Shown: positions 13,416-16,277 of the stretch, piece by piece
Layout of the letters: every line of letters starts with the position of its first letter
Numbering within the stretch: the first letter of the stretch is position 1
Source: a virus
Length of the DNA stretch: 38,181 bases
Virus record (IMG/VR): IMGVR_UViG_3300046028_002217
Span: 1 to 38,181 of that record
Strand: one strand, 5' to 3'
The notes under the pieces: generated by a model
The model's input: only the letters and a program-made list of their open reading frames with translations
Told to the model about the DNA's origin: nothing
Database searches by the model: none
Position numbers and translations under genes: made by a program

Positions 13416-13567
13416 TCTGCTACAGAATAGCGGTTAAAGGGCGTCTACTATCTTCTTTAAAGTAGACTAAAGAAGATAATAGAATAATAGAATAAGATCT
13501 TTAATCAGAAATAGATATAAAGGTAGGACGCCCTTTTTCTGTATCTGTAGCAGGATCTGTAGCAGAG
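13416..13567. promoter_or_regulatory. Three operator-like TCTGTAGCAGR sites
   Basis: The element occurs inverted at 13416-13426 (TCTGCTACAGA) and twice in direct orientation at 13544-13554 and 13556-13566, the last two spaced exactly 12 bp apart. They sit between the divergent late and early blocks and flank a hairpin region. Three matching 11-mers in a 150-bp region suggest binding by a regulator, possibly with looping between sites. Confidence 0.55.
13436..13538 (+). promoter_or_regulatory. Nested and mutually exclusive hairpins in divergent region
   Basis: An outer perfect 10-bp stem, AAAGGGCGTC (13436-13445) with GACGCCCTTT (13527-13536), is followed by T residues, as in a terminator. 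Inside, 13445-13459 pairs with 13468-13482 (14 of 15). A competing 7-bp stem, GTCTACT (13443-13449) with AGTAGAC (13461-13467), uses overlapping bases. The design resembles an attenuator or an operator cruciform, and no upstream plus-strand promoter was found that would transcribe it. Confidence 0.5.
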
Positions 13568-13609: not shown

Positions 13610-13984
13610 ATGGAAAAAGCCTTACGAATCAAGGACTTAGAGCACATTGCCCACGTCATGGGGAAGTCAAAGCGCGAGGAAGTTCGCTTAAATCTACTCA
13701 GATTGCAGGAATTCCTCGGTTCAGAAGCCGACCTCTTTGTGGACGGCCGCAAGAAAATGTGGGGCCCGGAAGGTTCAGCTCGGGTCAAAGTTCAGACTCG
13801 CCCAGAGCGAAAAACCCATAAAGTAACGTGGCGTAATGGCGGAACTGTCGAAGTTACCACAACAGAAGCCGTCAAAATATCCCGCCGAAGGAGCGCCGGG
13901 GCACTGGCCGTAACGCTTAGTAAGAACGGCGGAACGTTCTCATTCAACGAAGACGACGACATCGTTACTATTCGGCGCCTCTAA
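13610..13984 (+). CDS. Hypothetical basic protein, first early gene
   Basis: A 124-residue Lys/Arg-rich protein. Residues 1-50 are helical (LRIKDLEHIAHVMGKSKREE, then LNLLRLQEFL). Residues 58-124 read as several beta strands (HKVTWRNGGTVEVTTTEAVK, TFSFNEDDDIVTIRRL). No known motif is recognised. It is the first gene transcribed away from the divergent region, preceded by GGAG, so it is a candidate early regulator or host-takeover protein, possibly acting on the repeats upstream of it. That role is inference from position and charge only. Confidence 0.7.
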   Translation: MEKALRIKDLEHIAHVMGKSKREEVRLNLLRLQEFLGSEADLFVDGRKKMWGPEGSARVKVQTRPERKTHKVTWRNGGTVEVTTTEAVKISRRRSAGALAVTLSKNGGTFSFNEDDDIVTIRRL

Positions 13985-14030
13985 TTTACATGAGATAGAA
14001 TCGACCTCGTCGGGCCAGTTAGCAACAGTC

Positions 14031-14180
14031 TCGCAGTATCCTGCGACTCCAGTGGCAAAACTCCTCAGCAAGGTTGATTGGTCCGACACCTTTCGTGCAG
14101 CTGAGCAAGTACGAAAGCGCCAAGCCTGCTGAGGAATTGGCGTTAAATGCCTGCGCCTCAAACGTATAACTGGAGTTTTA
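14031..14180 (+). promoter_or_regulatory. Highly structured leader of the primase-helicase gene
   Basis: The 196-bp gap before the primase gene holds a 6-bp hairpin (14031-14046) and a long nested stem. TCCTCAGCA (14062-14070) pairs with TGCTGAGGA (14127-14135), TTGG (14078-14081) with CCAA (14120-14123), and CTTTCGT (14090-14096) with ACGAAAG (14111-14117). AAAACTCC (14057-14064) is also the exact complement of GGAGTTTT (14172-14179), which contains the primase ribosome binding site. The TCC of that octamer is shared with the long stem, so the two structures exclude each other. An RNA switch, an sRNA or a protein-binding site are the options. Confidence 0.6.
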
Positions 14181-16277
14181 ATGGTAACCAAGAAGAGACC
14201 GGCCACTTCCGCCGACCCAAAAGCATTGTCCTTGGGTGAAGAGAAACTGAAATCCTCTGGGCTCACCTTAGAGGATGCAAAGATTCTAGGTATGCATTGC
14301 CTGGGCCAGCCCCAGACCCAAGCACTCCATCCTGCCTTCAGACCTTTGTGTAGTCTTCGTATTGACTACCATGGGCCTGATGGTCTCCCCATCATTGACC
14401 ACCCAGGTTCTACGTCGTTCTACCGTGTCCGCTACTTAGAAGTGTCTTCTGACTTCAGTGCGCTCACCGACAAGAAGCCGCCACGCTACGTTCAGGAGCC
14501 CAACACGGCCCCAGTTGCCTACTACCCGCGCAATCAAGATTGGTCCAAGATCGTTGGTGACGTCGACCAGCCCCTGATCCTCACTGAAGGGGAGCTGAAG
14601 GCGGCCAAGGCCTGCAAGGAAGGTTTCCCTACTGTTGGACTTGGTGGTGTGTACAACTGGCGCAGTCACAAGTTAGGTCTTGCCTGGCTGCCAAGTCTTG
14701 AGTTCATCATGTGGGTGAAGCGGAACGTCTACATCTGCTTCGACTCTGACTACATGACCAACCCCATGGTCTGCGCAGCACTCCGTGAGTTGGCAGATGA
14801 GCTGCACCGCCGTGGATCGTTTGTCCATCTCATTACACTGCCTGCGTTGCCGGGTGTCGAGAAGGTGGGTCTTGATGACTTCTTGCTGCATGCCGGCCCA
14901 TCAGCCACGTCGATGTTTGGGCAGTTGCTCACGGAAGCCGAGCCGCTTGGTCTGACCGCGCCGCTATGGGACCTGAACGAGAAGTACGTGTACGTTCAGG
15001 ATCCTGGCTTCGTCGTAGTGCAAGACACTCGGTTCAAGGCCTCACCAGGAGCATTCAAGGACCATCTGGAATCCACCTCGAACTACCACGAGCGCGGTCT
15101 CAGGCAAGACGGCACCGTGTCCTACAAGGCGGTCTCAGCAGCTGCGGCATGGCTGAAGTGGCCGTTGCGCAATGAGGTCACGAAGATTACATATAAGCCA
15201 GGTGGCAAGGTGTTCCTGCAAGAACCTCGGCCCATGTTTAATACTTGGACTGGTTGGGGCGTTGAACCTGAAGAAGGCGATGTCGACCCATTCTTGGAAT
15301 TGATTGGGCACATCTTCAAAGGATCTGAGCCCCAAGCCATTGAGTGGTTTCTGAACTGGTGTGCGTACCCACTGCAGCACCCGGGCACGAAGTTGTTTAG
15401 CTCCGCAGTCCTTCATGGTATCAAGCACGGCACTGGTAAGTCGCTGGTCGGATACACGCTTGGCCGCATCTACGGGCAGAACTTCACTGAGATCAGCCAG
15501 ATGGACCTGCACAACTCCTTTAATGAGTGGGCAGAAGGTCGCCAGTTTGTGATGGGCGATGATGTGACCGGTTCGAATAAGCGGGCAGATGCTGACTTCT
15601 TGAAGAAGCTCATCACCCAGCGTGAACTCCGAGTCAATGGGAAGTATGTGCCAACCTACGTAGTACCGGACTGTATCAACTACTTCTTCACGGCCAACCA
15701 TCCCGACTCGTTCTTTCTTGAGGATGACGACCGCCGGTTCTTCATCCATGAAGTGCAGGTAGGCCCCATGGATGAGGAGTTCTATATGAACTACGACCTG
15801 TGGCTCGATACTGGTGGCAGCAAGGCCGTGTTCCAGTATCTGTTGGACCGAGATACCGGTGCGTTCAACCCAGCGGCTCCTGCCTTCAAGACCTCAGCCA
15901 AGGAACGCATGATCGCGAACGTGCAGAGTGACTTGGCCGGTTGGGTCCGCACGTTGGTGGCCACTCCTGACTACACACTGAAGGTCGGCGAGATCGTGGT
16001 TGACAAGGATCTGTTCACTTCGAAGGAGTTGCTGCAGTTTTACGACCCATCTGGAAAGACTGGCACCACTGCAAACGGTCTTGGGCGCGAGTTGGCCAGG
16101 GCTGGGGTCCGCCAGATTTGCCATGGGAAGCCGATTCGGTTGTCTGATGGGTCACAAGGTCGGTTGTACGCGCTGCGGAACCTCGACCAGTGGATTGAGG
16201 CGACTCACCAACAGGCGGCGAAGCACTTGGATGATTGGGCGAAGAAGCAGGGTTCAGCAAAAGTTGCAAAATATTGA
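14181..16277 (+). CDS. Primase-helicase: DUF3854/TOPRIM-like plus SF3 helicase
   Basis: A 698-residue fusion. The N-terminal part has a TOPRIM-like pattern, LILTEGELKAAKACKEGF (residues 132-149), with acidic Glu136/Glu138 and then YICFDSD (Asp188, Asp190), like DUF3854 domains next to phage and plasmid primases. The C-terminal part is a superfamily 3 AAA+ helicase: Walker A GIKHGTGKS (413-421), Walker B with VMGDD (Asp460/461), sensor TANHP (about 504-508) and Arg finger candidates 518/519. It would open and prime the fork. The start ATG is preceded by GGAG, which can be sequestered by the leader. No separate DnaB-type helicase or DnaG primase is present. Confidence 0.9.
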   Translation: MVTKKRPATSADPKALSLGEEKLKSSGLTLEDAKILGMHCLGQPQTQALHPAFRPLCSLRIDYHGPDGLPIIDHPGSTSFYRVRYLEVSSDFSALTDKKPPRYVQEPNTAPVAYYPRNQDWSKIVGDVDQPLILTEGELKAAKACKEGFPTVGLGGVYNWRSHKLGLAWLPSLEFIMWVKRNVYICFDSDYMTNPMVCAALRELADELHRRGSFVHLITLPALPGVEKVGLDDFLLHAGPSATSMFGQLLTEAEPLGLTAPLWDLNEKYVYVQDPGFVVVQDTRFKASPGAFKDHLESTSNYHERGLRQDGTVSYKAVSAAAAWLKWPLRNEVTKITYKPGGKVFLQEPRPMFNTWTGWGVEPEEGDVDPFLELIGHIFKGSEPQAIEWFLNWCAYPLQHPGTKLFSSAVLHGIKHGTGKSLVGYTLGRIYGQNFTEISQMDLHNSFNEWAEGRQFVMGDDVTGSNKRADADFLKKLITQRELRVNGKYVPTYVVPDCINYFFTANHPDSFFLEDDDRRFFIHEVQVGPMDEEFYMNYDLWLDTGGSKAVFQYLLDRDTGAFNPAAPAFKTSAKERMIANVQSDLAGWVRTLVATPDYTLKVGEIVVDKDLFTSKELLQFYDPSGKTGTTANGLGRELARAGVRQICHGKPIRLSDGSQGRLYALRNLDQWIEATHQQAAKHLDDWAKKQGSAKVAKY

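Follow-up and report, generated by a model that had tools for sequence, protein, structure and literature searches.

Does the RNA in front of a phage primase gene carry a fold that governs translation of that gene, and if so, which strands take part in it? The question is raised by the window analysed here, the whole stretch of a single virus record (38,181 bases), in which a primase gene occupies positions 14181-16277 of the + strand and encodes a 698-aa protein with DUF3854 and DUF5906 domains (Pfam and PHROG matches, the latter to phage primase families). The ATG lies at 14181, and GGAG of the ribosome binding site (RBS) lies five bases 5' of it. The original prediction proposed that an octamer, AAAACTCC (14057-14064), pairs with GGAGTTTT (14172-14179), which includes the RBS, in one state, and that a 9-bp stem formed by TCCTCAGCA (14062-14070) and TGCTGAGGA (14127-14135) replaces this pairing in the other. 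All of these coordinates are exact, the complementarity can be read directly in the sequence, and octamer and stem do overlap at 14062-14064. Each alone is only mildly unusual: dinucleotide shuffling of the leader yielded an exact complement of at least 8 bases over the RBS core in 2.1% of cases, and 1.8% of the shuffles of 14031-14180 contained a 9-bp Watson-Crick stem. With a minimum free energy (MFE) of -66.5 kcal/mol, 13985-14200 folds better than shuffles (z = -2.06), 5 of 200 of which were equally good. An ORF of 124 aa without a Pfam or PHROG match (13610-13984, +) ends just 5' of the leader.

Relatives were collected through the primase protein, because nucleotide searches of phage sequences with the leader region gave no matches. 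The closest annotated relatives of the primase are those of AXL3, PW916 and ctUtU524 (protein identity 52-57%). The first protein scan yielded twelve IMG/VR relatives with sequence 5' of the primase (identity 79-84%), and later scans added about 240 hits, in which the same contigs often recur and the leader is sometimes missing. More than 40 distinct leaders (given L numbers here), those of the cultured phages AXL3 and PW916 among them, contain the element described below, either 5' of the primase or 5' of an endonuclease-like ORF that has been inserted ahead of it. Pattern scans for copies elsewhere were negative beyond primase and endonuclease-plus-primase loci, the leftover candidates being chance matches or a contig end. 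In the more distant phages M6, Ab18, RHph_I65 and Mcat4, the primase gene closely follows or overlaps the preceding annotated gene and leaves no room for a leader, so the element is confined to one clade. One leader, L118 (DYMC01000001.1), comes from a record titled as a Lentisphaera MAG; since its leader and primase are the same as those of virus contig L059, the contig probably stems from a phage and was binned with a bacterial genome.

Comparison of these sequences indicates that the leader is a real folded RNA, the shape of which is kept in dozens of related phages while its letters change. In the upstream regions of the relatives, CUCAGCAA, ACACCUUU and GCUGAG occur in constant order with variable sequence between them, and the helices were recognised by reading complementarity instead of letters. 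The element extends from about 14009 to 14180 (about 170 nt, + strand) and comprises five helices, P1-P5. P1 is formed by GTCGGGCCAGTTAGC (14009-14023) and GTTGATTGGTCCGAC (14073-14087, next to a conserved ACCTTT), a duplex of 15 bp including 4 G-U pairs (-23.0 kcal/mol), which ranges from 11 to 20 bp across phages, differs in sequence in nearly every one of them and shows compensatory changes. Between its strands lies the P3 hairpin UCGCAG-UAUC-CUGCGA (14031-14046, pair probability 0.86), and a hairpin of other sequence is found at the same place in relatives. P3 is followed by the 5' strand of P5 (P5a, GACTCCAGT, 14045-14053) and by the 5' strand of P2 (P2a, TCCTCAGCA), with the near-invariant core CUCAGC. 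Downstream of P1 are the P4 hairpin (CTTTCGTGC-loop-GTACGAAAG, 14090-14117, pair probability 0.99), the arms and loop of which covary, the 3' strand of P2 (P2b, TGCTGAGGA, probability 0.93 with P2a) and the 3' strand of P5 (ACTGGAGTT, 14169-14177), which includes GGAG (14172-14175).

P1 and P2 cross and form a pseudoknot, which was absent from the earlier account and is invisible to nested folding because of this crossing. Of the further stems that the MFE fold of 13985-14200 places inside P2, only the P4 hairpin is conserved; the other one is built with the 3' strand of P1. In nested chain-growth folding, P1 appeared at about 14090 and P4 at about 14120, and P2 together with P5 took over only once the RBS had been made, although nested energies cannot decide whether P1 coexists with P2 and P5 in the full pseudoknot.

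Pair counts were limited to an alignment of 13 sequences from the close clade, because MAFFT misaligns P1 across families; alignment-free swap tests were used for the other families. In the alignment, 96.2% of the cells are standard pairs, compared with 33-48% when the partners were slid. Changes on both sides were found in 10 pairs, 8 of which belong to P1 (8 of its 12 pairs), and 29 cells are changed on both sides (shuffles, 8.8); both the double-change cells and the covariation score exceed all 500 shuffles. Covariation in related phages, on which the original prediction had staked itself, was looked for and found, and its claim of a structured leader RNA 5' of the primase gene is borne out by the related leaders. 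Across 39 families, a P1 strand pairs over 14.3 bp with the partner from its own family and over 6.2 bp when partners are swapped, a test that is favoured by the way the stems were picked, which the shuffle control repeats. For the combined architecture, 23 of 24 families had an observed score that none of 40 shuffles reached; among intragenic control windows, 1 of 91 reached a score of 60. A covariance model built from the relatives only matched the element alone in the window (14063-14134, 11.1 bits, E 0.096), and the same model found only leaders in 48 other sources. Among near-identical leaders (L001-L008, L020, L037 and L045-L063), an alignment also shows that the middle of P1 is hypervariable yet paired, with nearly constant neighbouring sequence.

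The strand that folds can be told from the wobble pairs. In a strand-symmetric stem score over 48 distinct elements, P1 contains 74 G-U and 13 A-C pairs, where several of the A-C pairs come from stems stretched past P1 and the 48 elements are related and not all independent. Because G-U far exceeds A-C, the folding strand is the + strand RNA, and the structure is not a DNA cruciform. A conserved structured RNA on the coding strand and directly 5' of a gene is what a cis-acting, RBS-sequestering leader should present, and this is what was found.

The RBS itself is paired by a strand other than the octamer. A second exact 8-nt match, ACTCCAGT (14046-14053) with ACTGGAGT (14169-14176), was absent from the earlier list and is the preferred pairing, with a mean pair probability of 0.90 compared with 0.00 for the octamer. 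When the leader was folded with competing constraints, forcing the octamer cost 7.2 kcal/mol (-53.9 vs -61.1). In addition, L047, L050 and L199 share the window's anti-RBS strand CTCCAGT and its P5, but carry GTCATCCC at the octamer site. In its favour, the octamer matches the RBS region exactly over 8 bp and shares 3 nt with P2a, and 2.1% of shuffles contain such a complement by chance; even so, it is an alternative anti-RBS strand that is not conserved, and a switch in which it alternates between the RBS and the P2 stem is the least credible of the explanations considered. What survives of the claim of mutually exclusive folds is the competition for shared strands, in which the octamer is not supported as the switch strand.

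The sequestration of the RBS, which had also been claimed, stands with P5. When the anti-RBS strand between P1 and P2 was paired with its own RBS in 34 families, the score was 17.7, compared with 14.0 for swapped RBSs; none of 5000 permutations, which count families as independent, reached this value, and the highest was 15.85. The RBS is paired with a leader strand and this pairing covaries, as in RBS-sequestering leaders, although not universally, with a weak P5 in L066, L068, L070, L252 and L265. Examples of the pairing are UCCUUCUUGUCA/UGACAAGAAGGA in L072, CUUGUCACCC/GGGUGACAAG in L255 and AUCUCCGGU/ACCGGAGAU in L059. P2b may be an addition to the element, because families without it (L071, L234 and L358) retain P5.

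Endonuclease-like ORFs lie between the element and the primase gene in L006, L012, L047, L050, L057 and L199; they are of at least two unrelated kinds, one of which has a weak Pfam HNH match. Where such an ORF intervenes, it is this ORF whose RBS is clamped by P5. The pairs, identified by eye in the sequences, are GGGUC/GGACCC in L006, CUCGGGUC/GACCCGAG in L057, and CUCCAGU/ACUGGAG, which is the window's own P5, in L047, L050 and L199.

These pairings also bear on the idea of an origin or primer element, in which replication would be initiated by the transcript or by the DNA of this region and the structure would serve that purpose. The element always adjoins the primase gene, where two transcription arms diverge and the AT skew flips sign, as such a role would have it, but P5 tracks the RBS of the adjacent gene, the excess of G-U over A-C speaks for RNA, and a better origin candidate with repeats and an AT-rich tract lies 450-750 nt upstream. 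We regard this role as highly improbable.

The 5' end of the transcript was considered next to P1. A -10 hexamer, TAGAAT (13996-14001, +), was recognised by sequence 7 nt 5' of P1; as the -35 of the window is poor (TTTACA at 13985-13990, just 5 nt from the -10), transcription of its leader may start at a promoter farther upstream. In most relatives, a promoter scan found TTTACA or TTTACG, a spacer of 17 or 18 and TAnnnT, ending 5-7 nt before P1, so that P1 should begin at about +1. A helix that starts at about +1 in most relatives, and that is the strongest and most variable of the element, would also suit an mRNA stability element, in which P1 together with the knot shields the early transcript against decay and the RBS pairing is secondary. 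Since this leaves both the conserved RBS pairing and the conserved loop and P2 sequences unexplained, it is given slightly less credence still than the origin.

The helices, the folding strand and the clamp on the RBS have been shown by comparison of related leaders, and the reading that we prefer, with a probability of roughly three in four, is that the element is a pseudoknotted, cis-acting leader RNA that serves as a translational operator of the phage primase. In the proposed mechanism, P1 would begin near the first transcribed base and form upon synthesis of its 3' strand, P3 and P4 would fold locally, and P2 would close the domain across P1. P5a, held between P1 and P2, would then clamp the primase RBS through P5, and a paired RBS would be the default state of the full-length leader. 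The clamp would lower translation and would be set, in an autogenous control, by a product of the phage, for which the primase or another replication protein is the likeliest candidate. We infer that the leader may in this way control entry into replication, as had been suggested.

The moving part of such an operator would be a choice made by P2a. The P4 loop contains GCTGAG (14100-14105), the complement of the P2a core CUCAGC, and since the loop and P2b have this sequence in common, either can serve as the partner of P2a (GCUGAG in the loop or GCUGAGG in P2b). Both partners have changed along with P2a in L203 (P2a CUCGGC, loop GCCGAG, P2b GCCGAGAG) and in L255 (P2a UCGGCAG, loop CUGCCGA, P2b CUGCCGAGGA), and the loop alone tracks P2a in the diverged phages L358 (GUAGCUCC/GGAGCUAC), L263 (UGGACCUUC/GAGGGUCCA) and L071 (CUAAGCGGU/GCCGCUUAG). 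In eight families, the pairing of P2a with its own P4 loop scored 19.0 and with swapped loops 13.7 (0 of 20,000 permutations, again with families counted as independent), a result that is helped by the selection of the hairpins partly by that very pairing. The loop match is broken in L119, and L070, L251 and L276 are without it. The mutually exclusive fold is more likely to reside in P2a, with the P4 loop and P2b as its rival partners, than in the octamer. It is tentatively suggested, at clearly less than even odds, that the element represents a new class of phage RNA switch, in which CUCAGC, within a pseudoknot, picks either the loop or a distal strand with the loop's sequence and thereby opens or clamps the primase RBS, and in which the primase or its partner decides between the two and determines when replication begins.

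A switch of this build could also answer to a metabolite. The preQ1-II and ZTP riboswitches have a hairpin in or beside a pseudoknot and an RBS sequestered by a long-range helix; a pseudoknot and an RBS clamp are usual riboswitch components, and near-invariant unpaired segments stand here next to fast-changing helices. CUCAGCAA, ACACCUUU and GCUGAG would then form a ligand pocket (e.g., for a nucleotide) that switches P5. However, no Rfam class matches, the element was found only before the primase gene or an endonuclease ORF plus primase and never before metabolic genes, in which it differs from riboswitches of the preQ1-II/ZTP type, and P2a and the P4 loop are wholly rewritten in some families. 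A metabolite riboswitch is therefore considered unlikely.

Searches with Rfam release 15 (riboswitch, ribozyme, intron and leader families) gave no score above the gathering threshold, and permissive Rfam scans gave chance hits only (microRNA and snoRNA families) or none; the element is apparently uncatalogued. Its closest counterpart is the gene 32 operator of T4, T2 and RB69, also a leader pseudoknot of a phage replication gene 5' of the start codon, beside which lies the T4 homing endonuclease gene segG, much as an endonuclease-like ORF lies beside the element in some relatives (PMC535899, PMC3014915). In gene 32, the RBS is part of an unstructured, UUAAA-rich region that comes after a pseudoknot of ~28 nt (PMC535899, PMC3014915). 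The present element differs in preceding a primase gene, in its length of about 170 nt and in its five helices; a pseudoknot 5' of the RBS is there (P1 with P2), whereas the RBS lies inside P5, and no UUAAA repeats are found between P2b and the start codon in the window sequence. Since its RBS lies in a helix and the UUAAA region is absent, the element is of the same kind as the T4 gene 32 operator but not of the same family. The S4 alpha operon operator likewise combines a pseudoknot around the translation start, alternative folds and translational control. The S15 (rpsO) operator, which is named in PMC3014915, shares these features with the present element. Compared by description only, both differ from it in sequence and topology and in serving a ribosomal protein instead of a phage gene.

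The crossing order P1, P2 5', P1 3', P4, P2 3' is also that of HDV-like ribozymes. P1 has 11-20 bp here and about 7 there, an insert of 30-50 nt separates P1 from P2, and there is no P3 between P2 5' and P1 3'. An HDV-like ribozyme, as well as a group I intron core, which was considered from the topology, was rejected on helix lengths, spacers and the lack of an Rfam match.

T4 gene 32 is the main known example of a phage replication gene whose translation is governed by an RNA pseudoknot. According to a review of 2010, gene 32 was possibly the only viral pseudoknot used in translational autoregulation (PMC3014915). The words "promoter", "terminator" and "RNA structure" are absent from the text of the AXL3 paper, and the element is apparently not described there (PMC7504290); a literature search of limited journal coverage, in which absence is not proof, found no description of it. 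A widespread primase-leader pseudoknot in a different phage group, cultured phages included, would represent an independent instance, the databases would gain a new RNA family, and the timing of replication in such phages would become testable with simple reporter and probing experiments.

A further observation concerns the region upstream of the leader. The motif CTGTAGCAG has only three exact copies in the 38-kb window, at 13417-13425 (-), 13545-13553 (+) and 13557-13565 (+), which adjoin an AT-rich tract (13440-13530) between the divergent arms. Repeats of the TGTAGC type are found 180-900 nt 5' of the primase gene in most relatives, and the CTGTAGCAG repeats are candidate iterons of an origin or a candidate site for an early regulator.
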